A stretch of DNA of 64,000 nt. Origin: Leminorella grimontii ATCC 33999 = DSM 5078. GTDB lineage: Bacteria > Pseudomonadota > Gammaproteobacteria > Enterobacterales > Enterobacteriaceae. A program made the position numbers and the translations under genes. Numbering within the stretch: position 1 is the stretch's first letter; each line of letters begins with the position of its first letter. The stretch lies in contig NZ_AUUA01000002.1 in NCBI RefSeq assembly GCF_000439085.1, positions 248,001 through 312,000 on the forward strand, read 5' to 3'. Below, piece by piece: positions 2,683 through 36,047 of this stretch. The notes under the pieces were generated by a model that was not told the origin of the DNA, made no database searches, and saw only the letters and a program-made list of their open reading frames with translations.

Positions 2683-4125
2683 TTACCGGGTATTCTCCCG
2701 CTCGTCGGTGATAAGCTTCAGCGCCTCTTCACGCGTCAGCTTATTCTTCGGCGTGGCCAGCGTAACGACCACCGCACAGATCAGGCTCACCAGCACCGAC
2801 GGCACGCACGGGTTGCCCCACCAGGCCAACCAGCTATCGTTCATTAACATGGCGACCGAAGCGCCCGCACCGCCCACCAGCGCAACCAGCGCCCCTTGCC
2901 AGTTAAAACGCAGCCAGAAACGCCCCAACATGGAACACACGAACAGGCCGGACATCAGCGTGGCGATCATTTTGGTGATGTAGCTGATGATGTCGTTGGA
3001 GGTTAGCGCGAAAACCGTCGCCAGACCAATGACAAACACCAGGAACCAGCGGGACAGCGAAATGGCTTTGCGCCCTTCCGGCATTCTCCCGGTCACCAGC
3101 GTATAGAGATCGCGCATGATGATAGACACGCTGGCGATAGCGTCAGAGCTGGCGGAAGACATCGTGGCGGAAAGCCCGGCAATCAGCACAACCAAACCAA
3201 GAATGCTCGGCAGAAAGCTGGTGGCAAACAAAAACGCATAGTTGCTGTTTTCCAGCGAAGGATTCATGGTAAAGGCCGCCATGCCGATAATGGCCGGTAA
3301 GATGGAAAAGAAGAGGTAGAGCACGCCGGTATAGACAAAGGAACGACGTACGGACGACACGTCTTTGCCGGAATAAATACGCTGACGATAGGACGGCGTT
3401 GCCAGCACGCCCACACAAATCACCATCGCCATCGAAAATGCCGGCAGTACGCCAAGCTTATCAACGGCAAACGGGCTCATTGCCGCCGGATCCACGGCCT
3501 GCTGGATAGCGTCCCAGCCGCCGACGTGATGTACCGCCAGCACGGCCATTAAGATAAAGCCAAAGAACAGAATTAGCGCCTGAATGGTATCCGTCCAGAC
3601 CACGGCAGAATAGCCGCCGATAATCACATACACCGCAAACGCAAAGGCGATAATCAGCTTGGCCCACGTCAGATCGAGGCCCGTAGCCCAGGCTAAATAC
3701 ATGCTGCCGCCAAGAATATGAGCGCCTAGCCAGCCTATAGAGGCCACGAAAATCAAAATACCGACGATATTTTTAATCAGATGACTGCCGCCGGTATAGT
3801 AGGAGAGCTCTTCGCTCATGGTCATAAAGCGCAGCTTGCGCACCGGGGTAAACCACCACGCAACCAGCAATATGCCAATTGCGCCGCCCGCGCCGTACAG
3901 TACGCCCGCCCAGCCGTTACTGTAACCGAGACCTACTGCCCCCATGCTTGACCCGGTTCCCACCATGGTCGCTACCGTCGACCCCAGCGTTAAAAACATC
4001 GGCAGTGAACGGCCGCCCAGTAAGAAGTCTTCGCCATCTTTCTGATGACGCGACACATACCAGCCAAGCCATATCATAGCGAGAACATAAATAATGAATC
4101 CGATAAGAAAAATATGACTGTTCAT
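2683..4125 (-). CDS. sodium:solute symporter (SSS family)
   Basis: About 480 residues form 12-13 transmembrane helices. The first helix (IFLIGFIIYVLAMIWLGWYVS) is followed by DFLLGGRSLP, the typical beginning of SSS transporters (PutP/PanF/SiaT relatives). These are inner-membrane sodium-driven importers of sugars, amino acids or organic acids. A GTG at 4128 is directly before the ATG at 4125; the ATG is preferred, with GGAA about 8 bases before it. It is gene five of the six-gene catabolic operon and is therefore the likely importer of the acylated substrate. Confidence 0.88.
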   Translation of the reverse strand: MNSHIFLIGFIIYVLAMIWLGWYVSRHQKDGEDFLLGGRSLPMFLTLGSTVATMVGTGSSMGAVGLGYSNGWAGVLYGAGGAIGILLVAWWFTPVRKLRFMTMSEELSYYTGGSHLIKNIVGILIFVASIGWLGAHILGGSMYLAWATGLDLTWAKLIIAFAFAVYVIIGGYSAVVWTDTIQALILFFGFILMAVLAVHHVGGWDAIQQAVDPAAMSPFAVDKLGVLPAFSMAMVICVGVLATPSYRQRIYSGKDVSSVRRSFVYTGVLYLFFSILPAIIGMAAFTMNPSLENSNYAFLFATSFLPSILGLVVLIAGLSATMSSASSDAIASVSIIMRDLYTLVTGRMPEGRKAISLSRWFLVFVIGLATVFALTSNDIISYITKMIATLMSGLFVCSMLGRFWLRFNWQGALVALVGGAGASVAMLMNDSWLAWWGNPCVPSVLVSLICAVVVTLATPKNKLTREEALKLITDERENTR

Positions 4126-4326
4126 CACGTATTTCCAGACAGTTATTAACGATCTCCGCCCTGGCTAATCGTTGTTGAGTTGATTGATTTGGCCTCTAAA
4201 AAAGCAAAGGAACCCGATGGCGCTCACAAACAGGAATGCCATAACCGTTTTTGCTTTAACGCTCAGCCCAATAGGTGCAACCGGCGTCAGCGAGGCCTCT
4301 GTCTCAGGAACAGAGGGAAGGGAACG

Positions 4327-4716
4327 TTACCTTCTATCCGCCCGATAGCAGGTCATATCCACTTCCACCATGCAGTCGACCACCAGATCCGCCACGCAGC
4401 AGACCCTGGCCGGCGGATGCTCGGCAAAGAAGCCCTTAAACACTTTATTGAACGACTGGAAGTAGCGGGCATCGCTTAAAAATACCTTCATATGAACGAT
4501 GTCCTCTTTGCCGAATCCCGCCTCGGTCATGATGTCCAGGCAGTTTTGGATCGCCTGAGTCGACTGAGCGATGATGCCGCCGTCGATGATTTCACCGTCG
4601 ACCATCGGCGTCTGCCCGGAAACGTACAGCCAGCCGCCGGCCTCAACCGCTTTAGCGAAAGGCAACGCCTGCCCGCCCGTGCCCTTGCCGCCCTCTACGC
4701 CGTATCTTTTAATCAT
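4327..4716 (-). CDS. RidA/YjgF/UK114-family enamine/imine deaminase
   Basis: The 129-residue protein has the complete small RidA fold. Known RidA proteins hydrolyse 2-enamine or 2-imine intermediates released by PLP dehydratases to the 2-keto acid and ammonia. The key arginine that binds the carboxylate is present in PPARVC (Arg about 104), and the later acidic residue in CMVEVDM is kept. A GGGGGA site precedes the start. The gene overlaps the end of the deacylase gene by 8 bases, which implies translational coupling. Its partner enzyme is probably the PLP deaminase in the same operon. Confidence 0.9.
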   Translation of the reverse strand: MIKRYGVEGGKGTGGQALPFAKAVEAGGWLYVSGQTPMVDGEIIDGGIIAQSTQAIQNCLDIMTEAGFGKEDIVHMKVFLSDARYFQSFNKVFKGFFAEHPPARVCCVADLVVDCMVEVDMTCYRADRR

Positions 4717-6172
4717 GTTGTCCCCCGTTTTTTACATTGTTATCTTTGGTTAAAAATCTGCCGGCGCGATGGCCCGTCATCTGCTTATCGCGATAGGTCA
4801 GGGTGCCGTTGACGAAGACATACTCGATGCCTTCGGCCTTTTGTTTTGGATTTTGGAAAGTGCCCGACTCGTTGACCCTGTCGGCATCGAAAATCACGAT
4901 GTCGGCGAAGTAGTTCTCTTTAATCAGCCCCCGCGCTTCAAGCGAGAAGCGTGCCGCCGACATGCCGGTCATCTTGTGCACCGCCGTGGACAGCGGGAAC
5001 AGCTTCTCATCGCGGCTGTAGTAGCCGAGCACGCGCGGGAAGGTGCCCCACAGTCTGGGATGCGGATTGGGGTCGCAGGGCAGGCCGTCGGAGCCAATCA
5101 TCGAGCTGGGATGCTTAAGCACGCGCCTGACGTCGTCTTCGTGCATCTGGAAGTAGATAGCGCCAGCGGGAAGGAGCTTCGCCGCTGCGGCGTGAACGTC
5201 GACGCCCCACGCCTGACCTATCTCCTGTAAGGTTTTGCCCGCCATCTCAGGGTGCGGCGTCGACCAGGTGATCAGGATGTCGTAGTCTTCGGTCACCTGG
5301 CTCAGGTCGAGGTTGGACGAACCGGCGCGGTACGGGTAGCAGTCGCAGTTGATGTCCTGCATCGCCTGATACTTCTCAATCAGCGCCAGCGTTTCCACCG
5401 TGCGGCCCCAGTTCTTGGCGCCCGCGCACTTGTGGTGGGAAATCTGCACCGGCACCTTGGCATGACGGCCAATAGAAAACGCTTCGTGCATGGCGTCGAT
5501 AATGCCGTCGTACTCGGTGCGCATATGGGTGGTGTAGAGACCGCCGGCGTCGGCCAGCAGTTCGGACAGCGCGCAAACCTCTTCGGTCGACGAGTTGATG
5601 GCGTTGCCATAGGACAGCCCGGTGCTCAATCCCAGCGCGCCCTGCTCCAACGCCAGCTTCAGCGTCTTGCGCATCTCGGCGATGTCTTTTTCTTTCGCCG
5701 GCTCAAGCAGCGTTTCTACGCAGTTGTTGCGAAGCGTGGTGTGGCCAATCAGCGTACCAACGTTCACCGACGGCGTAACCTGCGTAATTTTTTCCCGGTA
5801 GCTCGCCACGTCCGGATAATGAAACTCATCGAGCTCGCCCAGCAGGTTGATAGGGTCCGGCACCTCGTCTTTCATCACCGCGCAGGCCGCGCTGATGCCG
5901 CAGTTGCCGACGATAAGGCTGGTCACGCCTTGGGAGGTTTTCTCCACGTAGTCGGGGTGCTTAATCACGATCAGGTCGTCGTGGGTATGAACGTCGATAA
6001 AGCCGGGGGACAGCACCAGGCCGGTACAGTCGATAACCGTTTCAGCCGCATCGCCGATGGAAGGCGCGATGCGAACGATGCGATCTCCTTTGACCGCCAC
6101 GTCGGCAACGTATCCGGCGCCGCCGGAGCCGTCGATGACGGTCGCGTTTTTAAACAGGTAATCATGCTGCAT
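4709..6172 (-). CDS. N-acyl-D-amino-acid deacylase (D-aminoacylase), amidohydrolase superfamily
   Basis: The 487-residue metal-dependent amidohydrolase has the family landmarks of D-aminoacylase: DVHTHDD near residue 60 (first metal histidines), GNCG near residue 90 (the metal-bridging cysteine), TTHMRTE, ISHHK, and IGSDGLPCDPNPHPR with the catalytic aspartate. The known reaction is hydrolysis of N-acetyl-D-amino acids to the free D-amino acid and acetate. The start has an AGGA site. It is immediately followed by ridA. In this operon the acyl substrate could be an N-acetyl-D-hexosaminate rather than an ordinary D-amino acid (inference from dgoK/dgoA next door). Confidence 0.92.
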   Translation of the reverse strand: MQHDYLFKNATVIDGSGGAGYVADVAVKGDRIVRIAPSIGDAAETVIDCTGLVLSPGFIDVHTHDDLIVIKHPDYVEKTSQGVTSLIVGNCGISAACAVMKDEVPDPINLLGELDEFHYPDVASYREKITQVTPSVNVGTLIGHTTLRNNCVETLLEPAKEKDIAEMRKTLKLALEQGALGLSTGLSYGNAINSSTEEVCALSELLADAGGLYTTHMRTEYDGIIDAMHEAFSIGRHAKVPVQISHHKCAGAKNWGRTVETLALIEKYQAMQDINCDCYPYRAGSSNLDLSQVTEDYDILITWSTPHPEMAGKTLQEIGQAWGVDVHAAAAKLLPAGAIYFQMHEDDVRRVLKHPSSMIGSDGLPCDPNPHPRLWGTFPRVLGYYSRDEKLFPLSTAVHKMTGMSAARFSLEARGLIKENYFADIVIFDADRVNESGTFQNPKQKAEGIEYVFVNGTLTYRDKQMTGHRAGRFLTKDNNVKNGGQHD

Positions 6173-6209
6173 AACAATTCCTCATGAATACTTAAGCAAA
6201 ATGAACGTC

Positions 6210-6833
6210 TTAGCGCGTCGCCGTGGCCTGCCGATAGGCATCGATAAACGCCTTGGCCTGAAGCCGCGTTTTTTCAGGCCGTTGCCCGGCCTTATAGAGA
6301 TCTCCCCCCAGCCCGGCGCCGACGCAGCCGGCGTTCAAATAGTCCGACAGGCTGCCCGGCGTCACGCCGCCAACGGCAAAAACCTGAACCTGTTTGGGCA
6401 AGACGGACTTCAGCGCGCGAACGTAGTCCGGGCCGAAAACGCTGGACGGGAACAGCTTGATGCTCTTCGCGCCCGCTTCAATAGCGCTGAACGCCTCGGT
6501 CGCCGTCGCGCATCCGGGCAGCACCACCATACCGTAGTCAACCGCCCGGCGAATGACGTCCGGATTGGTGTTAGGGGTGACAATAAGCCGACAGCCCAGC
6601 TCCGACAGCCGGTCTACGCTGGCGACGTCAAGCACTGTGCCAGCCCCGATAAGCGCCCTGGAGCCGAAGCGTTCAACCGCCAGCCGGATGCTGGTTTCCC
6701 ACTCGGGGGAGTTCAGTGGGATCTCGATGGCGTCGAACCCTTCCTCGATAAGCAGAGAAACGTGCGCCTCCACTTCACTCGGCGTGATGCCTCTGAGAAT
6801 GGCGACCAGAGGCGTTTTCATCGTGTTATTCAT
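6210..6833 (-). CDS. dgoA: 2-dehydro-3-deoxy-6-phospho-galactonate/gluconate aldolase (DgoA type)
   Basis: The 207-residue class I aldolase of the KDPG/KDPGal family opens with LVAILRGITPSE and contains the Schiff-base lysine in SIKLFPS (Lys 126), GAGTVL and the VGGVTPG phosphate-binding loop. It cleaves 2-keto-3-deoxy-6-phosphogalactonate (or the gluconate epimer) to pyruvate and D-glyceraldehyde 3-phosphate in the cytoplasm. A GGAGA site precedes the ATG at 6833; Met5 is an alternative start. It follows dgoK by 18 bases. The usual galactonate partners, dgoD dehydratase and dgoT transporter, are absent; acyl-amino-acid enzymes take their place. Confidence 0.9.
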   Translation of the reverse strand: MNNTMKTPLVAILRGITPSEVEAHVSLLIEEGFDAIEIPLNSPEWETSIRLAVERFGSRALIGAGTVLDVASVDRLSELGCRLIVTPNTNPDVIRRAVDYGMVVLPGCATATEAFSAIEAGAKSIKLFPSSVFGPDYVRALKSVLPKQVQVFAVGGVTPGSLSDYLNAGCVGAGLGGDLYKAGQRPEKTRLQAKAFIDAYRQATATR

Positions 6834-6851: not shown

Positions 6852-7877
6852 TTACGGCGCGGCACGAAGCGCGGCCACACCGTCCGCCCCGGCTATCGCT
6901 TTCATCACTTCAATCGCGCCCAGCCCCGACAGCGGGCGGCGGGCGTCTTCATCAACCAAAACGAGCTCGCCGCGAAAGAACGGATCGCGCTCAATCAGCC
7001 TGGCTAGCGCCTCTTTCATAATGGCCTTGCCGCTGACGACGACCGTCGTCGACGGCGTAAGGGCGAGCGCCCGGCTGTTCTTAATCGCCAGCAGGTCGGA
7101 ATAGAGCACCGCGCCCAACAGGAAGTTGGCCCGCTGGTTGACCGATGCCGAAGTAAAGAGATCGAGAATGCGGACGGAAAAGCAGCTGCGGGCGATGCCG
7201 ACGTCTCTACAGGCGTCCGCGCCCTTTAACAGGTACTCGTCGTCGATGTCGTCGGCAAACCGGTGTTCCAGAGAATTGGCCAAGATCGTCTGGTGGGTCA
7301 GCACGTCCAGCAGCTCACCGGCCACGGTGGTGGCGCAGCCCGCGATGCGCTGCTCCTCGTCAATGCGGATAAACTTGGAGTGGGAGCCGGGCAGCACCAG
7401 CAGCGCGGGGCCACGCACGCCGTGCGCAGCCAGCAGGCCGAAGGTTTCCACCTCTTCGCCGCGCATGACGTCCATGCCGTCGCAGTTGTCCAAACTGACG
7501 GCCTCAACGGCGTTTTTAACGCCGGGAATAAACCAGATGGGGCTGTCGCTGATTTCGGGAATAACGCGCGCCACTGCGCCTTGCGCCAGCGCGCCCAGCG
7601 AAACGGGCGCCGTCAGGTGTGGGATATGGCAAAGCCCGACGTCGGAGGTGATCATCCCCGATGCAACCATCGTGATTGACCGCTTGTCCTGTTCGTCAAC
7701 GGTGGCCAACGCGGCTTCCAGCGTCTTGCGGATCCCCTTGATCAACGCCTCCGGGCTGCCGGTTTTGGCCGTATCCCTGACGCCGACGGATTCACTGGCG
7801 GAGGCGATGACTTCGCCGTTTTTCCACACTTTGACTCTCGTATTAGTCGTACCGGAGTCAATGGTTACAATAAGCAT
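6852..7877 (-). CDS. dgoK: 2-dehydro-3-deoxygalactonokinase (DgoK type)
   Basis: The 341-residue sugar-acid kinase has the DgoK family start (LIVTIDSGTTNTRVKVW, phosphate-1 motif), the central LPGSHSK motif and a C-terminal ADP-binding glycine region. It phosphorylates 2-keto-3-deoxygalactonate at O6 with ATP. I chose the ATG at 7877 because GGGGA lies six bases before it and the family starts there, although the frame is open further upstream. It is the first gene of the operon and lies directly behind two operator-like repeats. Confidence 0.9.
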   Translation of the reverse strand: MLIVTIDSGTTNTRVKVWKNGEVIASASESVGVRDTAKTGSPEALIKGIRKTLEAALATVDEQDKRSITMVASGMITSDVGLCHIPHLTAPVSLGALAQGAVARVIPEISDSPIWFIPGVKNAVEAVSLDNCDGMDVMRGEEVETFGLLAAHGVRGPALLVLPGSHSKFIRIDEEQRIAGCATTVAGELLDVLTHQTILANSLEHRFADDIDDEYLLKGADACRDVGIARSCFSVRILDLFTSASVNQRANFLLGAVLYSDLLAIKNSRALALTPSTTVVVSGKAIMKEALARLIERDPFFRGELVLVDEDARRPLSGLGAIEVMKAIAGADGVAALRAAP

Positions 7878-7914
7878 GCTGTTTCCCCAGAGTAGAAACT
7901 CAGAACCCAATAAA

Positions 7915-7976
7915 ATGGAATACCATTCCGTTTTTGAAGATTAGATCTATTTTGATGGAATGTCGTTCCGTTTTTG
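7915..7976. promoter_or_regulatory. two tandem operator-like repeats upstream of dgoK
   Basis: Two 22-bp direct repeats lie at 7915-7936 and 7955-7976, exactly 40 bp start to start. Each contains an imperfect palindrome GGAATNNCNTTCC followed by GTTTTTG, and they differ at only three positions. Their place between dgoK and the divergent IclR gene suggests the binding sites of the IclR (or GntR) regulator. Forty base pairs is about four helical turns, so two dimers would sit on the same face. Confidence 0.6.
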
Positions 7977-8110
7977 GTAGAATCGTGAGACGCATCACAA
8001 CGCAGTCGCAACACGTTGAAGGCAGGTGGCGGAAAACGCTAAACAAGAAGGCCGTTTAGCGTCCGTCGCTATCGGTGATAGAATGCGCTTCAGGCTGGTA
8101 ACTACGCGTT

Positions 8111-8138
8111 TTGCCAGCGAAAAAATTGTAGGTACAAT
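8111..8138 (+). promoter_or_regulatory. putative sigma-70 promoter of the IclR gene
   Basis: TTGCCA (8111-8116), a 16-base spacer and TACAAT (8133-8138) lie about 30 bases before the start codon of the IclR-type gene. Confidence 0.45.
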
Positions 8139-8167
8139 GGGAACGTGTTTAATTCGGGGAAACGGCG

Positions 8168-8938
8168 ATGTCGAAAAACGAAAGTATGAATTCCTCTAAC
8201 ATCGACAAGGTGTTAACCATTCTTGAGGAAATCAGCAACCACTCTGACGGAGTCTCGCTGGCGGAGCTGGTCAAGCAGACGGACATCCCTAAAACCACCG
8301 CCTTTCGCATACTGGAAACGCTCAAGGAGCGGCAGTACGTCACGCTGGACGTCATCACCGAACGCTACATTCTGGATTTGAAAAGCCTTGAGCTGGGCAT
8401 GAAGGGATTGATGAACGTTAACCTGGTTGAGGTCGCCATTCCCTATCTGAAAAAGCTCTCCAGCAAAACGGCTGAAACCTGCTTTTTGGGCGTCTACAAC
8501 GCGGGCTTTGTCGTTTATCTCTATAAAAGCGAAGGGACGCTCTCCATTCAGACCAACGCCAAACTGGGCGCTCGCCTGCCCGCGTTCTGCACCGGCATCG
8601 GCAAGGCGCTGCTCGCCTTCCAGCCGCAGGAAGAGATCGATCGCGTGCTCAACGAGCCGCTAACCCGCTTTACCGAACGCACCATCGTCGACAGAGTGGC
8701 GCTGTACGAAACGCTGGCCGATATTCGCCTTAAGGGATACTCGCTGGACAACGAAGAGAACGAAGAGGGCCTGACCTGCGTCGCCCGGCCGGTGTTTAAC
8801 TATACCGGCAGCGTGGTCGGCGCCATCAGCGTCGCGGGGCCGACTCACCGCATGCTGCGCAAAATAGACGAGGTCAACGACGAGCTGGCGCAGGTCTGCA
8901 CGCTGATTTCTCGCCGCCTGGGGCATATTCCTGGCTAA
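8168..8938 (+). CDS. IclR-family transcriptional regulator
   Basis: The 256-residue protein has an N-terminal winged helix (about residues 10-70, with LAELVKQTDIPKTTAFRILETL) and the C-terminal GAF-like effector domain of IclR proteins, including the typical PAFCTGIGKALLA and GYSLDNEENEEGLTCVARPVF motifs. IclR relatives such as KdgR commonly control sugar-acid pathways. A GGGGA site supports the ATG at 8168. It is divergent from dgoK, with the twin repeats in between, so it is the best candidate regulator of the catabolic operon and possibly of itself (inference). Whether it represses or activates is not visible. Confidence 0.9.
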   Translation: MSKNESMNSSNIDKVLTILEEISNHSDGVSLAELVKQTDIPKTTAFRILETLKERQYVTLDVITERYILDLKSLELGMKGLMNVNLVEVAIPYLKKLSSKTAETCFLGVYNAGFVVYLYKSEGTLSIQTNAKLGARLPAFCTGIGKALLAFQPQEEIDRVLNEPLTRFTERTIVDRVALYETLADIRLKGYSLDNEENEEGLTCVARPVFNYTGSVVGAISVAGPTHRMLRKIDEVNDELAQVCTLISRRLGHIPG

Positions 8939-8946
8939 TTCATTTC

Positions 8947-8969
8947 GCCGACGACCCGATGTCGTCGGC
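8947..8969 (+). terminator. rho-independent terminator after the IclR gene
   Basis: A 9-bp perfect stem (GCCGACGAC/GTCGTCGGC) with a 5-base loop is followed by ACAATTTT. It also separates this unit from the end of the convergent lafU operon. Confidence 0.65.
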
Positions 8970-8980
8970 ACAATTTTGTA

Positions 8981-9964
8981 CTACTTAATGCTGTGTCCCC
9001 GCGTAGCGGTTTGCCTCTGCTGCTCTTCAACCTTTTCGGCCAGCGGCTGCACCACCTTTTTCCCCTGTTCGCCAAAGAACTGATACAGCGTATCGGAGGC
9101 GGACTTGGTCAACACCATGATCTCAATGCGGCGGTTCTCGGCGCCGCCGGGATCCTGGCTGTCCAGCAGCATGCGGTCCGCCATCGCGCTGACCTGCATG
9201 ACCTTGTCTTCCGGCATTCCCGCCTTCTCCAGCACGCGGCGGGCGGACAATGCCCTGTCCCCCGACAGGTTCCAGTTGTTGTAGGCATCCCGATTTTTAT
9301 AGCGCATCGAGTCGGTATGGCCGGTGATGATGATTTTGTTGTCCAATGAGTCCAGCACCGGCGCAAGCTCGGTCAGCAGCGAATCAAAAAACGGCATGAT
9401 CCTCGCGCTGCCCCGTTCAAACATATTGCTGTTTTTGTCGTCTTTAATAAGGATCCGCAGCCCCTGAGGCACAATTTCCATTTCCAGATTGGCCTCCATG
9501 TGGGCTCTCTGGGCAATCAGATTTATATCAGCCGCTAAATCACCCAGCTCGCGTTCCGAGACCTGCTGCGCGGTGACCGCATGGCCGCTGCCGGTTTGCC
9601 CGCTGCGGCTGTCGCCAACCTTCGCCGTCGCGCTTGAAGGACGCGCTCTGTTAGGCTTATTGGGCTTTTCAGGTTTTGTTGTCGAAGCGGCAACCGCCTT
9701 CACGTTCAGCTTGCTCAAGGGCACGATGCCGCCGCCGGCAAAAATAGACTGGGTGCGCATGGCGGCGACCACCTTTTCGCGCTCCTTTTGGCTCACGCTG
9801 TTGACTATCCACAGCGTCATAAACAGCGCCATCATCGCCAGCGTAAAGTCGGCAAAGGCCACCTTCCACGCGCCGCCGTGGTGCGCCGCATGTCCCTTTT
9901 TAATCTGACGACGAATAATCGTCGTGTGGCCCCCGCGATCGCGTTTGTTTGACGGCTTTTTCAT
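8981..9964 (-). CDS. lafU: lateral flagellar motor stator protein LafU (MotB-like)
   Basis: The 327-residue protein has one transmembrane helix (about residues 34-55) in the MotB consensus WKVAFADFTLAMMALFMTLW, with the proton-carrying aspartate at about 39, followed by an OmpA-like peptidoglycan-binding domain (about 170-300, with TGHTDSMRY and NWNLSGDRALSARRVL). It forms the inner-membrane stator with LafT and anchors it to the cell wall. The ATG is 2 bases after the lafT stop. It is the last gene of the lafB-lafU operon. The presence of the Asp points to a proton-driven motor. Confidence 0.93.
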   Translation of the reverse strand: MKKPSNKRDRGGHTTIIRRQIKKGHAAHHGGAWKVAFADFTLAMMALFMTLWIVNSVSQKEREKVVAAMRTQSIFAGGGIVPLSKLNVKAVAASTTKPEKPNKPNRARPSSATAKVGDSRSGQTGSGHAVTAQQVSERELGDLAADINLIAQRAHMEANLEMEIVPQGLRILIKDDKNSNMFERGSARIMPFFDSLLTELAPVLDSLDNKIIITGHTDSMRYKNRDAYNNWNLSGDRALSARRVLEKAGMPEDKVMQVSAMADRMLLDSQDPGGAENRRIEIMVLTKSASDTLYQFFGEQGKKVVQPLAEKVEEQQRQTATRGHSIK

Positions 9965-9966
9965 GC

Positions 9967-10830
9967 TTATTCTCGCTCTAACATTGCGTCAACCCAGGCA
10001 TCCAGATTGGCGAAAGTGGGCTTCGATGCAAGGTGCAGCAGCTTACGTCCGGCGTCTACGGCCAAAAGCGTCGGCTTGCCGCCCGCCTGCGCGACCAGCA
10101 CGGTACGCACGCACTCCAGCAGAGAGTGTTCGGCGCGCGCCTGCTGTTCCATCGCGTTGGCCAGCGGGTCCATCAGGCAGTAACAGATAAATACGCCGAG
10201 GAAGGTTCCGACCAGCGCCGAAGCCACTTTCAGGCCGATGACCGCAATGGAGCCGTCGATAGACTGCATGGTGATAATAATCCCGAGCACCGCCGCGCAA
10301 ATGCCGAAGCCCGGCATAGCTTCCGCCGTACGCTGGAAGGAGCGGGAAGGCGCCATCAGCTCTTCTTCCACCGTATCCAGCTCCTGATCGAGGATCCCTT
10401 CCAGCTCGTGGGCGTCGATTTTCCCCATCGCCATCAGGCGAAAGTTGTCGGCAATAAAGGTCACCAGGCGCTTTTGCTTAAGCACCAGCGGGTATTTTTG
10501 GAAAACGGTGCTCTCCTCCGGCTGCTCAATGTGCTGATCGAGCACCCGCAGGCCTTCGTTTTGCACCATCTCCAGCAGTTCATACAGGCACATAAGAAGC
10601 TGGCGTTGAAAGTCGGCGCCCATATTCTTTTTGCTGAGCACGCCCTTAATCTGGTGCGCAATCTCTTTTAATACGTGCAGCGGGTTACCGATAATCATGG
10701 CGCCAAACCCGGCGCCGAGAATGATCACGATTTCGGCCGGCTGCCATATGGCGATCATGTGCCCACCGGCGGCAAAATAGCCGCCAAACACGCAGCCAAG
10801 CACCACGACTAAGCCTAAAATCTTTTGCAT
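9967..10830 (-). CDS. lafT: lateral flagellar motor stator protein LafT (MotA-like)
   Basis: The 287-residue protein has four hydrophobic helices: two near the N terminus, two after residue 165. The conserved MotA proline segment AMPGFGICAAVLGIIITM is present, as are the charged residues of the cytoplasmic loop. With LafU it makes the ion channel that turns the lateral flagellum. It is 61 bases downstream of lafS and 2 bases upstream of lafU in one transcript. Confidence 0.93.
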   Translation of the reverse strand: MQKILGLVVVLGCVFGGYFAAGGHMIAIWQPAEIVIILGAGFGAMIIGNPLHVLKEIAHQIKGVLSKKNMGADFQRQLLMCLYELLEMVQNEGLRVLDQHIEQPEESTVFQKYPLVLKQKRLVTFIADNFRLMAMGKIDAHELEGILDQELDTVEEELMAPSRSFQRTAEAMPGFGICAAVLGIIITMQSIDGSIAVIGLKVASALVGTFLGVFICYCLMDPLANAMEQQARAEHSLLECVRTVLVAQAGGKPTLLAVDAGRKLLHLASKPTFANLDAWVDAMLERE

Positions 10831-15598: not shown

Positions 15599-16501
15599 TT
15601 ATTGCAGCAGGCTGGAGACCATGCTGGACATGCTGTTGGACTGTTTCAGCATGGTGATGCCGGTTTGCATCAGCACTTGTTGCTTGGTCATGTTAGACGC
15701 TTCCGTCGCGTAGTCGGTATCCATGATGTTACCGATAGCCACTTCAGTGTTGTCTTGCATGTTTTGCAGGTTAGCTGCAGTGTCGTTCAGACGGTTGATA
15801 GAAGCACCCAGAGTAGACTGGATCTTACCGATATCGCTCATCACGCCTTGGATTGCGCTGATGGTGTCAGTTGCAGAAGCAGACGTCATCAGTTCAGAAC
15901 CACCGGATACTGTGCCGCCGGCGCCGTCTGTACCGTAGTCAGAAGAGAACGCTGCGCTCAGTGAGCTCAGAGAAGTAGCCAGATCTTCGATTTGGCTAGA
16001 AATGTTAACCGTCATTTGGTCAGTTGATTCAGAACCGACCTGGAAGGTCACGCCGCTGGTGTTAGTGAACAGGCCGCTGGCAGACTTGTTGAACAGGTTA
16101 GTACCGCCGTAAGTGGTGTTTTGCAGCATGTCTGACATTTGCTGACCCAGTTCGTCGAACTCAGACTGCATCGCTGCACGGTCGTCATCGCTGTACGTTC
16201 CGTTCGCTGCTTGTGTAGACAGGTCTTTCATACGGCCCAGGATGTCGTTCATTTCGTCGAACATGCCGTCAGCAGTTTGCAGCATTGCAGTTGCGTCAGA
16301 GATGTTACGTTGAGCAACGGCCATACCGCTGGACTGTGCGGTCAGACGGTTAGCGATTTGTTTACCAGCGGCGTCATCAGCAGAAGAGTTGATGCGGTTA
16401 CCGGTAGCCAGGCGTTCCATAGAGGTAGCCAGTGAAGCGTTACTTTTGTTGATTGCGTTTACTGATGCCATTGATGCGGCGTTGGTGTTCATAGATAACA
16501 T
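15599..16501 (-). CDS. lafA: lateral flagellin LafA
   Basis: The 300-residue flagellin has typical D0/D1 ends: SMNTNAASMASVNAINKSN at the N terminus and MLKQSNSMSSMVSSLLQ at the C terminus. The central surface domain is short (about residues 160-225, Ser/Thr/Gly-rich), as in other lateral flagellins. It is exported and polymerises into the filament. AAGGAG precedes the ATG; codon use is strongly biased, as expected for a highly expressed gene. It has its own terminator. Glycosyltransferases in the same locus suggest that its Ser/Thr-rich centre may be modified (inference). Confidence 0.95.
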   Translation of the reverse strand: MLSMNTNAASMASVNAINKSNASLATSMERLATGNRINSSADDAAGKQIANRLTAQSSGMAVAQRNISDATAMLQTADGMFDEMNDILGRMKDLSTQAANGTYSDDDRAAMQSEFDELGQQMSDMLQNTTYGGTNLFNKSASGLFTNTSGVTFQVGSESTDQMTVNISSQIEDLATSLSSLSAAFSSDYGTDGAGGTVSGGSELMTSASATDTISAIQGVMSDIGKIQSTLGASINRLNDTAANLQNMQDNTEVAIGNIMDTDYATEASNMTKQQVLMQTGITMLKQSNSMSSMVSSLLQ

Positions 16502-30709: not shown

Positions 30710-31138
30710 GTGAACGATAAGCTTCAATCGGTAAAAGCGCTGCTGCATGGCATCGTACTTGACGACGAACGTTATCTGACGCTGCGCCACCTGCTGGAAC
30801 GCCAGCGCCTGTGCATTATCAAGCGCGACTGCGACGAGCTGGCAAGCGTCAACGACCAAATCACCGACAGCTATGAACAGCTGAAAGAGGGTACGCGGCT
30901 GCGCCGTACGCTGCTTACGCAGCTTGGCGTAACGCTGGACAAGAACGGAATGGAACAGGTTTTCTCCTGGCTGCCCGCGGAACAAAAGCGCAGAGCGCAG
31001 GGCGCTTGGAAACAGCTGGAAAAACGCGTTTCCGGTTGCAAAGCGTGGAATGAAAAAAATGGCGAACTGCTAACCATGCAAAACGCCTTTGCGCAGTCTT
31101 TTTTAGGTACCGAACCGGACTTCCTCTACCACCCTTAG
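30710..31138 (+). CDS. lfgN: lateral flagellar chaperone LfgN (FlgN-like)
   Basis: The 142-residue, helical, charged protein has FlgN features (LLERQRLCIIKRDCDELASVNDQITDSYEQLKEGTRLRRTLLTQLGV) and normal family length. FlgN escorts the junction proteins FlgK and FlgL to export. It starts with GTG, 6 bases after lfgM. The frame stays open for 33 more codons beyond its TAG stop and looks codon-biased; see the findings. Confidence 0.85.
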   Translation: MNDKLQSVKALLHGIVLDDERYLTLRHLLERQRLCIIKRDCDELASVNDQITDSYEQLKEGTRLRRTLLTQLGVTLDKNGMEQVFSWLPAEQKRRAQGAWKQLEKRVSGCKAWNEKNGELLTMQNAFAQSFLGTEPDFLYHP

Positions 31139-31417: not shown

Positions 31418-32365
31418 ATGAGTCAGATTGAGTGCTACGAGCCAGAATTCGTTCGGCAATACCTTAACAATAATTCCCAGACCGCGAGCAAACCGCTGTC
31501 CCTGTGCTGGCAACACGAAGTCCGCCTGAGCCTGCCGTTAAACGACAGCGAGCGCTGCCGTGCGCTGCTTGCCTCAAGCAGCGCACTGGAACTAAACGTC
31601 TCCATGCGGGAAGCGTCGGCGGACTTCCCTGCCCTGCCCGACTGGGCTCAATCGCTCAACCAGGCCTCGCTCGACGCCGTGGGCCTCCCCGGCCTTACGC
31701 CGGAAGCGCGACTTTATGCCCTCGGCATTCTCCTTTCCTACGCCGCCAAGCTGGACAAAGAAGAGGTGACGACGCCGGAGGTCATTGCCACGCTGCCGAA
31801 AAAGCTTGAAGAGCTTGTGCGCGAAGGGGCGCTACAGTGCCAGTTTAACGAACTTCCCTCTATTCCGACGCTGCAGCGCCAGCTCACCGGCGCGTTGGGA
31901 ACATTCTCTTTTGACTGGAGCCTCCTGCCGGAAAGCCCGCGCAAGCAGGCCGTACAGCTACAAATCGGCCTGTTCCAAATGCAGGACGACAACGGCCTTT
32001 CACGCCTGCATCAGCAAATGATGGACGTCTGGCGGGAGCGCGGCGTTCCCCGGTTTGCCGACATGCCCTGGGTCTTTATCAACTACCTTTACTATCGCCT
32101 GTATCACGAGACGTTTCCCCATCACGATACGCAGCCAATGCCCGCACGCTACCTGACGTTAGTCAGCGACTACTTCCTGCTTCGCAGCCTGCTTTGCCTG
32201 TGGATGATGGACGGCGACGACTTGAGCGACGACGTTCTCGTCAGTCTGGTGGCGATGTTTGAAGCCTGGCGCTGCGGCCCGCTGGCCGACGAGGAAAAAG
32301 AGGCGCTTCTGGCGCCGCACAGGCAGGATGAAATCCTCAGCGCCATTTCCCTACTCACAAACTAA
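31418..32365 (+). CDS. unrecognised protein of the Flag-2 accessory slot
   Basis: The 315-residue protein has no signal peptide and no clear membrane helix, and is mostly helical in appearance, with two Trp/Tyr-rich stretches (FADMPWVFINYLYYRLYHETFPHHD and FLLRSLLCLWMMDGDDLSDDVLVSLVAMFEAWRCG). I recognise no family. It does not show the cysteine cluster of the flagellin lysine methylase FliB. It starts with a plain ATG and lies 17 bases before the large glycosyltransferase gene, on the same strand. A cytoplasmic partner of flagellin modification is possible (inference from position only). Confidence 0.75.
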   Translation: MSQIECYEPEFVRQYLNNNSQTASKPLSLCWQHEVRLSLPLNDSERCRALLASSSALELNVSMREASADFPALPDWAQSLNQASLDAVGLPGLTPEARLYALGILLSYAAKLDKEEVTTPEVIATLPKKLEELVREGALQCQFNELPSIPTLQRQLTGALGTFSFDWSLLPESPRKQAVQLQIGLFQMQDDNGLSRLHQQMMDVWRERGVPRFADMPWVFINYLYYRLYHETFPHHDTQPMPARYLTLVSDYFLLRSLLCLWMMDGDDLSDDVLVSLVAMFEAWRCGPLADEEKEALLAPHRQDEILSAISLLTN

Positions 32366-32382: not shown

Positions 32383-34857
32383 ATGAAAGCCATATCCACA
32401 GAAAACCGTCGGTCGCTGCCGTTTGTCAGCGTCGTCACGCCGACGTTTAACCGTGCCGAATTTTTGCCCTACCTGCTGTATATGTACCGCTATCAGGACT
32501 ATCCGGCAGAATGTAGGGAGCTGGTTATTTTGGACGACTCGCCGAAAAGCCATCAGGACATTATTAATACCCTGACGCAAGGCCGCCCCGAAAGCTTCAA
32601 CATTCGCTATATTCACCACCCGGAGCGCCTGGCGCTCGGCAAAAAGCGCAACATGCTCAACGAGCTGGCGCAGGGGGAATATATCCTCTGTATGGATGAT
32701 GACGACTACTACCCGGCGGATAAAATCAGCTACACCATCGAGATGATGCAAAAGCACGGGGCAACTATCTCCGGTTCGGATCAGATCCCCATTTGGTATA
32801 GCCACATTAACCGCCTGTTCAAGACCCACAGCTTCGGCAACCAGCACATTCTGAACGGTACGTTCTGCTATCACCGCAACTACCTGAAAAAGCATCGCTA
32901 TGACGATGACTGCAACCTGGGCGAAGAGCTGGCGTTTACCAACGGATTTACCGTTTCGCCTCTGCAGCTACCGGGGGAGCGCACAATCATGTGCGTATCC
33001 CACAGCCACAATACCTTCGACAAAGACTTCGTGCTCGGCAACAGCGAATCGCTCGACGCGGCGCTTGACGACGTCATCAGCGACGCCATGCTCAAAAACT
33101 GGTACCAGAGCCTGCACAACGCCACCCACAGCCGCCCGATCGAGTGGGGATTTATCGATAAGGTGGTGGTCATCAACCTGGATCGTCGAACGGATCGCTG
33201 GCGGCAAATAAGCGAAGAGCTCGCACAGCTTCAAGCGCCGGCCGATAAAATCGTTCGCCTCAGCGCCTGCGAAGACGACGACGGCCACGCCGGTCGCCGA
33301 CGCTCGCATCTGAAAGCGCTGAAAATGGCGCAGCGGGAAGGCTGGAAAAACTATCTGCTGCTGGAAGACGACGCCGTACTGCTCAAGCAGGAAAAGTACG
33401 TCAACGCCCTGAACGGGCTTTCCAATTCGCTTTCCGCTCTGGGTTGGCAGGCCGTCATTCTGGGCGGACAAATAAACCGAGGCCGACCGCTCAACAGCCT
33501 GCCCGGAATAGTACACGCCGCCGACTGCCAGCGCGTTTGCGCCTATCTGGTCAACGCGCCCTACTATGCGACGCTCGCCCAGCAAATGACCCTTGACCCT
33601 TCGGCCACGCTTGAAGAACAGTGGCGGCCGCTGCTTGAACAAGGAAAATGGCTGGCGTGCAGCCCAAGCCTCAGCTATCAGCGGGCCGGCTACAGCGATA
33701 TTGAGAAAAAAGAGAGCGACAACGTTCGCTTCTACTTTAACCGAGTTAATAAAAACCACCGGACGGAGAAGCTACAGGCCAGCCAGCAGCCGATAGCCAA
33801 CCTGCTGGGTGAAAAGATCGGCTTTTATATTGGCAACCCTTTTCACTATCAGCTCTATCGCACCGTGTTGCCAGTGCTTCAGGCTGCGGGCTACGCTTGC
33901 GATCTGCTCCTTGACGACGCCCAGCCGCCGGAGCGCCTTGACGGCATTAAGCGACTGCTGGCATCGCTGGAAAACCGCGAACTGAGCGGCAGCCCGCTTA
34001 GCGAAGTCAAAAATCGCCGGCAGCGCTACGCCTGCCTGGTCAGCCCGTTCTACACGCCTAAAATAAAGGGGCTGGCGGAAGTCAACGTTCGAGCCATGCC
34101 GACGCAGACAAACGCGGTCTGGAACTTCGCCTGGTGGAACCTGTTCTATCAGCGCCAGCTCTGTTACAGCAGCTACGACAGGCGCGCGCTCTCCATTAAC
34201 GACAGCGCCGTCATCGTCGGCGATCCGCGCTTTGACGACTGGCATAACGATCGCGTCGACCTGAGCGCGCTGTCCTCCCTTCGCCTCGACGAACGCAAGC
34301 CGACCCTGCTCTACGCGCCGTCGCTGGATGCGCGAGCGTCGATGCTCCAATGGGCGGAGCAGCTGGAGCCGCTGAGCCAGGAGTTCAATCTGGTGACGCT
34401 CTTGCACAACGACGACGACCTGCGCGCCCGCTCTCCGCTGGCTTCGTTTAAACGCCTGTATAAACGCGCGGTTAACGACGACGCGCTGCTTCTGCCGCTG
34501 CTCAAAAAGGCCGACGTGGTGCTCTCCGACGACGACGCCCGCCTTTTCGATGCTCTCCACGCGGGTAAACGCGCCATAGTGCTGCAGGCGCAGGAGCAGT
34601 CGACCATTCAAACGGCCGACGACGCTTCGCGTGAACTGCGTGCCCACCTGCCCGCCGCCCGCGACGTTGCGGAACTGCGACAACGCCTTGCAGAATCAAG
34701 CGGCGCCGATATGGAAGATTTACGACGCAGGTACTGCGATGCCTATATGGATGGACGAGCAGGGGAACGCGCGGCGCAGGAGATTATTAGGGCGCTTGAG
34801 GAGAACAAGGAAGAGCACGTCCTGCTCGAGAGTATAAAAAGCAGGCTGTTTAACTAA
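32383..34857 (+). CDS. multidomain glycosyltransferase (GT2 + GT25 + GT-B-like) in the flagellar locus
   Basis: The 824-residue protein seems to fuse three enzymes. Residues 1-230 are a GT2 fold (PFVSVVTPTFNRAEFLPYLL, ILDDSP, and the DDDD metal motif at about 105-108). Residues about 255-455 are a GT25 domain like LOS galactosyltransferases (DKVVVINLDRRTDRW, YLLLEDDAVLL, GYSDIEKKE). Residues about 470-824 resemble a GT-B half related to CDP-glycerol glycerophosphotransferases (IGFYIGNPFHYQLYR at its start, DDARLFDALHAGKRAIVLQ near its end). No signal peptide or membrane helix is seen. Its place between lfgN and lfiJ suggests that it glycosylates lateral flagellin or another axial protein (inference). 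Confidence 0.8.
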   Translation: MKAISTENRRSLPFVSVVTPTFNRAEFLPYLLYMYRYQDYPAECRELVILDDSPKSHQDIINTLTQGRPESFNIRYIHHPERLALGKKRNMLNELAQGEYILCMDDDDYYPADKISYTIEMMQKHGATISGSDQIPIWYSHINRLFKTHSFGNQHILNGTFCYHRNYLKKHRYDDDCNLGEELAFTNGFTVSPLQLPGERTIMCVSHSHNTFDKDFVLGNSESLDAALDDVISDAMLKNWYQSLHNATHSRPIEWGFIDKVVVINLDRRTDRWRQISEELAQLQAPADKIVRLSACEDDDGHAGRRRSHLKALKMAQREGWKNYLLLEDDAVLLKQEKYVNALNGLSNSLSALGWQAVILGGQINRGRPLNSLPGIVHAADCQRVCAYLVNAPYYATLAQQMTLDPSATLEEQWRPLLEQGKWLACSPSLSYQRAGYSDIEKKESDNVRFYFNRVNKNHRTEKLQASQQPIANLLGEKIGFYIGNPFHYQLYRTVLPVLQAAGYACDLLLDDAQPPERLDGIKRLLASLENRELSGSPLSEVKNRRQRYACLVSPFYTPKIKGLAEVNVRAMPTQTNAVWNFAWWNLFYQRQLCYSSYDRRALSINDSAVIVGDPRFDDWHNDRVDLSALSSLRLDERKPTLLYAPSLDARASMLQWAEQLEPLSQEFNLVTLLHNDDDLRARSPLASFKRLYKRAVNDDALLLPLLKKADVVLSDDDARLFDALHAGKRAIVLQAQEQSTIQTADDASRELRAHLPAARDVAELRQRLAESSGADMEDLRRRYCDAYMDGRAGERAAQEIIRALEENKEEHVLLESIKSRLFN

Positions 34858-34935: not shown

Positions 34936-35607
34936 TTATTCCTGCCCCACCACTTCCGACAGCGGCTTAAAAAACAGCTCGCGGTAGTCCACGACGCCCT
35001 TTTCAATATCACTGTAGTCTGCGGCCTGATAGGCGACGTTGGGGAAAAGCCCCAGCCAGCAGTCTTTCTCCATCAGGGACCACCAGTTTACGTCCAGCGC
35101 GTAGCGGCTCGGCAAGCCGCCGCGCTCAAGGTGATAAAGGCTTTGCAAATAGTTTTCCAACAGGATGGGATAGTAGTCACGCTGGACCAGGTAAGCGCAG
35201 GCGCACCATGCTTTATTGACGCGCACCAGATAGTTGACGTGCTTAAACGGGGTGACGCGATAGTGGTGTGCGGCCAGGAAGGCGACGGTCCACTTTACGT
35301 TTTTCAGCGTCTGAAACAGGCGATTGATGAGCACGCGAGCGCTCTCTTCATGGATAAACGTCACGTCGTCCTCAAGGATAAGGACGTTATTCCACTTTTC
35401 TTTCATCGCCATCAGCAGGACGGCAATGTGGGACTTAACGCAGCCGATATAGCCGGGAGATTCTTCAATCGCGTTAAAGCGCAGAACCTTCTCTTTGCTT
35501 ATACCCAGAGCCACCAGCTGCTTTTGCAGCTGTTCATTGCGATCGCGCCTTTTCGCCAGGTTGATATAGACCACTTTGTCGACAAACTGCCAATCAATCG
35601 AACTCAA
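34936..35607 (-). CDS. GT25-family glycosyltransferase coupled to lfiJ
   Basis: The 223-residue GT25 protein has DKVVYINLAKRRDRNEQLQKQL, CVKSHIAVLLMAMKEKWNNVLILEDDVTF and YSDIEKGV. The same three motifs occur in the middle domain of the large glycosyltransferase next door, so the two are related. I chose TTG at 35607, which overlaps the lfiJ stop (TTGA) and has GGGGG five bases before it; a GTG at 35637 would overlap lfiJ by more. It is the last gene of the lafK-lfiJ unit, so it is made together with the export ATPase and should serve flagellar protein modification (inference). Confidence 0.82.
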   Translation of the reverse strand: MSSIDWQFVDKVVYINLAKRRDRNEQLQKQLVALGISKEKVLRFNAIEESPGYIGCVKSHIAVLLMAMKEKWNNVLILEDDVTFIHEESARVLINRLFQTLKNVKWTVAFLAAHHYRVTPFKHVNYLVRVNKAWCACAYLVQRDYYPILLENYLQSLYHLERGGLPSRYALDVNWWSLMEKDCWLGLFPNVAYQAADYSDIEKGVVDYRELFFKPLSEVVGQE

Positions 35608-36047
35608 AACAGCCCCCGCATCCTCCGCTGCCAGCACTGGCCGGCAATTTCATCGATCGTCTTCTGCTGCTTGATGTCCGCGTCGTGGGCCAGCGCCTCT
35701 TGCCGTTCCTCAAGCGCAACGGCAATGCCCTTCTCCCTACAGGCGGCGTCAGTCAGGTCGCTTTGAATGCGCTCTTCTTTCACCTTAGCCAGCGCTTTCT
35801 CCTGCTTTTGCCATTCGATAACCCGCTGAAGGCTGCCCTTATAGCCGGACAGGTTTTTCAACGCCTCCGCATTAGACGAGCCGGCGCCGCCGACGTCGTT
35901 CTTTTGCAGCAAATAGCCCAACGCCTTGATGTTGTTATCGTAACGGATGCCAACCTGCTTCTGCTTGGCCAGCTCAACGGTCATTTCGGTAACCGCTTTA
36001 CCGCGCAGCCGCTTGAGGTGCATCAGCGTCATGACTGTCTGATTCAT
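35604..36047 (-). CDS. lfiJ: lateral flagellar export protein LfiJ (FliJ-like)
   Basis: The 147-residue protein is charged and predicted to be a long coiled coil (MTLMHLKRLRGKAVTEMTVELAKQKQVGIRYDNNIKALGY...), the usual FliJ form. FliJ sits in the centre of the FliI ring and carries escort chaperones. It overlaps lfiI by 4 bases (ATGA). Confidence 0.85.
   Translation of the reverse strand: MNQTVMTLMHLKRLRGKAVTEMTVELAKQKQVGIRYDNNIKALGYLLQKNDVGGAGSSNAEALKNLSGYKGSLQRVIEWQKQEKALAKVKEERIQSDLTDAACREKGIAVALEERQEALAHDADIKQQKTIDEIAGQCWQRRMRGLF

Follow-up and report, generated by a model that had tools for sequence, protein, structure and literature searches.

The Flag-2 variable region 1, defined as the interval between lfiJ and lfgN, has been reported to encode GT2, GT25, TagB and TagD proteins, and flagellin glycosylation was proposed as their role (De Maayer et al. 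2020, PMC6993521). The 824-aa protein studied here, which is encoded in a window of 64,000 nucleotides of Leminorella grimontii DNA, shares both the locus and the slot with these glycosyltransferases. Judged from the counts, it is likely the GT2-1 of De Maayer et al. Section 9 of their paper treats GT2, GT25 and TagB as separate categories, and it mentions no fusion, no dependence between TagD and a third domain, and no loss of a cleft; LafV is taken as a methylase in the same source. For the first two domains, the best fold match was the human collagen galactosyltransferase COLGALT1 (GLT25D1; 9evj, 9evk), which is likewise a tandem of GT-A domains; GT25 is the second of the two and has EDD as its metal site (PMC13382579). 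The identity was about 20% over the aligned residues. COLGALT1 has no third domain, and its first domain has been called dormant (PMC13382579), whereas the 824-aa protein keeps the motifs in both domains.

The third domain has its fold in common with TagF, TagB and Cps7A (PF04464), from which it differs by being fused to GT-A domains and by residing in a flagellar locus. Its intact relatives carry a Tyr and a His-His pair as found in the single-domain Cps7A (PMC11666461); these are lost in the window. Cps3D (8qoy) and HS1.09 of C. jejuni are also chains in which a glycosyltransferase is fused to a TagF-like domain, but the partner there is a GT-B domain with TPR repeats, and the chains serve capsule synthesis (PMC11924219). 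Cps3D matched the third domain with Z 20.6. The product of the neighboring lafV gene matches the NF038110 profile of FliB, the flagellin lysine methylase, but without the CX4CX3CC cluster. Among the matches listed for the open-licence PMC literature, taken by title and opening abstract, none described the fusion, the link between lafV and the glycosyltransferase, or the co-loss reported below.

The 824-residue reading frame is uninterrupted, and its coordinates and length are exact (Table 1). The first-pass annotation had placed the gene in a Flag-2 accessory slot, and we confirmed this: the gene belongs to variable region 1, where it is flanked by lfgN/lafV and lfiJ. The related-locus search found Flag-2 genes beside the glycosyltransferase gene in 26/26 loci, with only the lfg side in reach for L006 and L009. 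L006 is a Chryseobacterium-labelled contig with a Citrobacter-like Flag-2 locus and is probably a mislabelled assembly. The stand-alone GT25 gene of the window, whose product shares 34% identity with the fused GT25 domain, occupies the position beside lfiJ where many relatives carry TagD. The only other GT25 gene seen on the lfiJ side was in L017/L081, at the same place and with 57% identity; L017/L081 are likewise without a TagF-type third domain. The minus-strand reading frame that we take to be lafA was named from its sequence character and from the locus.

Table 1. Features of the window discussed in the text (positions in the window; aa, residues of the 824-aa protein)
Feature	Position	Strand	Basis or remark
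lafA, lateral flagellin, presumed target	15599..16501	-	open reading frame
lfgN	30710-31138		FlgN PF05130; flanks the 824-aa gene on the lafV side
lafV	31418..32365	+	FliB-derived, CX4CX3CC cluster of FliB absent; almost always accompanies the GT pair
GT2-GT25-(degenerate Glyphos_transf) fusion, 824 aa	32383..34857	+	relatives in 26 loci
GT2 domain, aa 12-245	32416..33117	+	PF00535, E 4.6e-21
GT2 metal motif DDDD, aa 105-108	32695..32706	+	invariant in alignment A3
GT25 domain, aa 250-456	33130..33750	+	fold match to 8xkd and COLGALT1; sub-threshold PF01755
GT25 metal motif LEDD, aa 327-330	33361..33372	+	motif in protein sequence
Third domain, aa 474-811, TagF/TagB-type GT-B fold, degenerate	33802..34815	+	TagF, Z 22.7
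AMPTQTN (intact relatives: AMYGLAK; Tyr lost)	34093..34113	+	corresponds to Cps7A Y94 / TagF H444
LLHN (intact relatives: KLHH)	34399..34410	+	corresponds to Cps7A H198/H199, TagF H584
SDDDARLFD (intact relatives: TD(N/S)SGFIFD)	34525..34551	+	motif comparison
Stand-alone GT25 gene	34936..35637	-	PF01755, E 3.2e-8, 34.1 bits (above cut-off)
lfiJ	35604-36047		FliJ PF02050; flanks the 824-aa gene on the stand-alone GT25 side

The GT2 domain is a member of PF00535, which it matched at residues 16-130 with 75.9 bits against a cut-off of 23.3. AlphaFold2 models were obtained for the full 824 residues (pLDDT 75.5, pTM 0.49) and for residues 1-470 (pLDDT 77.2, pTM 0.71). The predicted GT2 structure, in which residues from about 154 to 218 have low model confidence, has AvpGT (9jn3, Z 11.9) and TarS (5tzk, Z 11.8) as fold neighbors. 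Profile searches against PDB sequences (A1, A2) returned GT2 enzymes, together with a non-significant hit to TarL (E 0.15 and 0.53). The GT25 domain missed the PF01755 cut-off of 24 bits both in the whole protein (12.4 bits, E 0.14) and as a segment alone (16.6 bits, E 0.0073). Its residues 258-446 matched the beta-1,4-galactosyltransferase 8xkd with Z 15.5, and residues 5-443 aligned with both domains of COLGALT1 9evj (Z 20.5, 298 residues aligned, rmsd 5.7). The domain carries the RxSH and LEDD motifs. By its fold and its EDD residues, the GT25 part appears to work like a GT25 enzyme rather than being a formal member of the Pfam family. The EDD was kept in 29/29 distinct three-domain proteins and in L017, as compared to 0/13 of the two-domain relatives examined, among which L023 and L026 differ by a single substitution each. 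The GT2 and GT25 domains of the window thus still look active, as far as the retained metal motifs tell, and the family seems to inactivate one or other of its domains.

The third part matched TagF (3L7J/3L7L) with Z 22.7 and rmsd values of 4.3-5.1 over 332-341 residues, in rows spanning residues 447-811. UDP-GlcNAc 2-epimerases were close behind at Z 20-21 (up to 21.1), so the function cannot be read from the fold by itself. PF04464 matched neither the window segment nor anything in its genome (G000). Since Pfam gave nothing useful for the window copy, the domain was identified only through its relatives and its fold. Free-standing relatives from Rahnella and Erwinia loci (L021, L022 and L024) match PF04464 with E 1.3e-8, 1e-7 and 2.8e-5, and the two fused intact copies tested (G197 and G362) scored above its cut-off. 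We assign the third part to the glycerophosphotransferase domains of TagF/TagB type (PF04464). The first-pass annotation had read the chain as three fused glycosyltransferase parts, the last of them related to polymer-forming enzymes. Structure prediction found transferase folds in the middle and last parts, and the polymer-forming relation proved to be of the teichoic-acid type. Three transferase folds are indeed joined in one chain, the third being of glycerophosphotransferase type. By Pfam, the assignment held for GT2 and failed for the other two parts, GT25 being below its cut-off and the third part lacking a meaningful match.

All three parts were joined in 18/26 loci. L021, L022 and L024 encode the third domain separately, on the opposite strand. 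The locus DNA searched contained no third domain in L020, L023, L025 and L026; the genomes of L020 and L026 (G145 and G147) carry it elsewhere. In L017 (Phytobacter massiliensis, 7914-10565), its place is taken by a Capsule_synth domain (PF05159, E 1.1e-14). For the genome searches, the best 2 candidates per genome were considered for the GT pair and up to 5 for the third domain, LafV and FliG, and absence means not found at that candidate depth. The GT2-GT25 pair was present in 46/392 family genomes, as 22 three-domain, 1 Capsule_synth and 23 two-domain proteins. Stops were located inside the GT-pair match in G144, G147, G295 and G354.

Several loci held further genes of related type. In L075 (6206-7696) and L078 (9001-10491), a separate gene encodes an intact TagF-type domain joined to a short GT2-like piece, and it shares the locus with a two-domain GT2-GT25 gene. 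The Flag-2 locus of L077 holds a two-domain copy and, close to it (3832-6225), a second fusion of three parts with 32% identity. In the Pseudocitrobacter locus L010, variable region 1 includes a gene for a Fic protein adenylyltransferase (7252-8328; NF046030, with a score above the cut-off), and L011 and L012 share its ORF cluster.

In Cps7A, Y94 and H198/H199 superimpose on TagF H444 and H584 (PMC11666461); we transferred this correspondence to the third domain by motif and order, not by residue-level superposition of the model. In L008-domain numbering, the window copy has the changes Y95P, H198N, T200D, S242D and G243A, and it retains H197, D247, P168 and R138. The PF04464 catalytic set (Tyr/His base, pyrophosphate-binding His, and Ser/Asp of SS..D) is therefore incomplete. 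Seven cleft residues (Tyr, His, His, Thr, Ser, Gly and Asp), picked after the motif table had been viewed, are intact in 40/43 distinct sequences, the remote L076 included. The three exceptions are the window, L015 (Citrobacter freundii M-21) and L036 (G077), the last with changes at Tyr and Ser only (2/9 cleft residues). An alignment of 15 intact relatives (A2) has 91 invariant columns, of which 28 were changed in the window, 33 in L015 and 7 in L036. Of the 25 remaining sequences that were not used to define these columns, 24 have changes at 0-14 of them and L076 at 46/91; L036 falls within this control range and is thus distinguished by the identity of its changed residues, not by their number.

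The evolutionary rate pointed the same way. On a fixed tree of 29 proteins, the ratio of the terminal branch of the third domain to that of GT2+GT25 was 2.04 for the window, 1.34 for L015 and 1.24 for L036, the last hardly higher than the 1.23 of L003, which sits on a very short branch. Relative to L008, the window protein is 75% identical in GT2, 56% in GT25 and 50% in the third domain; the control L004 gave 77%, 58% and 72%, respectively. The one other genome in the genus of the window was without the GT gene. As the genus thus offers no close relative, dN/dS was calculated for the pair L036/L004, resulting in 0.191 for the third domain, 0.099 for GT2 and 0.084 for GT25; as pairs of intact proteins taken as controls go up to 0.178 in the third domain, these values alone prove nothing. 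The GC3 of the window third domain (0.735) equals that of its GT2 domain and fits a sequence that is still read as protein. The window and L015 are placed with weak tree support (39-50), and their sequences show a gap in the same position; they may share one loss, and the independent losses number two or three. We regard the third domain of the window as most likely a remnant that no longer has catalytic activity.

A TagD-like gene would supply the donor for an intact third domain. An ORF of 130-163 aa belonging to one TagD-like family was present in 16/26 loci. The five proteins scanned had TIGR01518 as their best match (E 7e-34 to 1.8e-37), with 117-128 bits against an equivalog cut-off of 165, so CDP-glycerol is the best guess, not a certainty. 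The strong TagD tier (E below 1e-50) comprised 48 of the 392 genomes, and the third domain was found in 32. The TagD-like gene accompanied the intact cleft in 29/29 genomes and the degenerate cleft in 0/3 (Fisher P 2e-4). Among the 46 GT-pair genomes, it was found in 28/28 with an intact domain, 0/3 with a degenerate one and 1/15 with none (P 1e-11); both P values ignore shared ancestry. The distance from TagD to the domain was within 6 kb in 24/29 genomes, 11 kb in G087, 16 kb in G042 and G257, and 78 kb in G145, and in G361 the two lie on different contigs. TagD was also detected in 19/360 genomes without the third domain. In the window genome (G000), the TIGR01518 search gave only a 500-residue frame of HldE size and no TagD-like gene. 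G077 and G197 belong to one genus and have sister proteins (support 100), with TagD only in G197, so at least the loss in G077 was recent and separate. In 5,426 complete E. coli genomes, third-domain DNA was found in 1,265 (in 1,262 over at least 80%) and TagD in 1,262, the two genome lists being counted separately. Such a DNA match is not always an intact gene: the L084 copy is annotated as frameshifted, and the L085 copy has all motifs intact. The E. coli third-domain genes are annotated simply as 'glycosyltransferase' in the records listed.

The lafV product reached 48 bits against NF038110, below the cut-off of 85, and covered residues 120-359 of the 373-position profile. The CX4CX3CC motif forms the iron-sulfur cluster of FliB (PMC8598068). 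It was found in none of 45 distinct LafV sequences and is also missing from an E. coli LafV; 8/8 FliB-tier genes fetched have it, one of them elsewhere in the window genome. An N-terminus missed through a wrong start was considered for lafV and rejected, as in-frame stops lie upstream and the three upstream frames contain no cysteine cluster. With the LafV profile, 44 genomes formed a strong tier (E 6.8e-78 or lower) that was clearly set off from that of FliB, where E values were 1.7e-43 or higher. The GT pair was present in 44/44 LafV genomes, and LafV in 44/46 GT genomes. The exceptions, G077 and G197, have the GT pair without LafV, which is thus not strictly needed. The 62 genomes with flag-2 FliG (E 1e-90 or lower) comprised 43 with both genes, 2 with the GT only, none with LafV only and 17 with neither. 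The missing FliB cluster makes the printed role as a methylase (PMC6993521) doubtful. LafV is probably not a methylase by its sequence, and it may be a partner of the GT pair that presents the substrate.

With these results in hand, we consider the protein a Flag-2-specific glycosyltransferase that would carry out two sugar steps on LafA with the help of LafV, the third step having been lost in the window lineage (probability about 0.68). The GT2-GT25 tandem would put a short sugar unit on LafA, the target suggested by location, in the cytosol before export. LafV, derived from FliB and without the iron-sulfur site of the methylase, would help to present the substrate. In most three-domain relatives, we infer that the third domain next uses CDP-glycerol to add glycerol phosphate to the glycan as a cap or decoration, and the donor would be made by the TagD-like enzyme, usually encoded nearby. 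In the window lineage, TagD appears to be gone and the cleft residues decayed, while the fold and the reading frame stay. The product of the stand-alone GT25 gene next to lfiJ may attach a different sugar.

What the third domain still does in the window can be explained in other ways. A tentative proposal, which is compatible with the two-step reading, is a non-catalytic scaffold that binds LafV or flagellin or stabilizes the GT pair. A coding-type GC3 in a dead domain means that it may have kept or gained a role, and fold and frame were preserved as the cleft decayed; similarly, 13/13 two-domain relatives retain the GT25 domain despite the lost EDD. The N-domain of COLGALT1 was described as a dormant scaffold in a review (PMC13382579), but its DXD proved essential by mutagenesis (PMC3244457), which weakens the parallel. 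The third domain was also not found in 15/46 GT-pair genomes, so the pair can exist without it. It is unlikely that the domain was re-tuned to another donor and still acts on the glycan. The open frame over about 350 codons with its coding-type GC3, the retained P168, R138, H197 and D247, and an AF2 model that is still a GT-B fold with mostly good local confidence would agree with such neofunctionalization. Against it stand the highest third-domain branch ratio of the 29 proteins and the vanished PF04464 signal. Furthermore, L015 changed its Tyr, Thr and Ser to residues other than those of the window (Gly became Ala in both) and lost the opposite His, which looks like decay in both and not like a common new site.

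The first-pass annotation had suggested three active steps in one protein. Stepwise synthesis of a trisaccharide-like glycan by three active glycosyltransferases could draw on the three transferase folds and on the retained DDDD of GT2 and EDD of GT25. This reading is highly improbable, however, as the glycerophosphotransferase-type third domain has lost the Tyr, Thr, Ser and Gly of its cleft and half of the HH pair, evolves on a fast branch, and has no TagD found in its genome. Enzymes of capsule or LPS synthesis include examples of GT2, GT25, TagF-like and Capsule_synth domains alike, but modification of a surface polysaccharide, with the Flag-2 position due to chance insertion, hardly agrees with Flag-2 genes beside the gene in every related locus and a flag-2 FliG in 45/46 GT genomes.

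With the two-step reading, what was loosely a 'glycosyltransferase in a flagellar locus' becomes a specific pathway that can be tested, with two sugar steps and an optional glycerol-phosphate step. The latter can be read from the genome, as TagD and the cleft are either intact together or both lost. LafV, printed as a methylase, is suggested to be a partner of the glycosyltransferase. With third-domain DNA in so many complete E. coli genomes, laboratory tests are within reach. In a broader and more speculative form, to which we give somewhat less than an even chance, LafV as a methylase-derived escort, the COLGALT1-like tandem and the fused, TagD-fed TagF-type domain of enterobacterial Flag-2 loci, which about one in four complete E. 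coli genomes would have, would be a self-contained unit that places a glycerol-phosphate glycan on lateral flagellin, and in the window the teichoic-acid-type step would have died with the domain kept as a scaffold.
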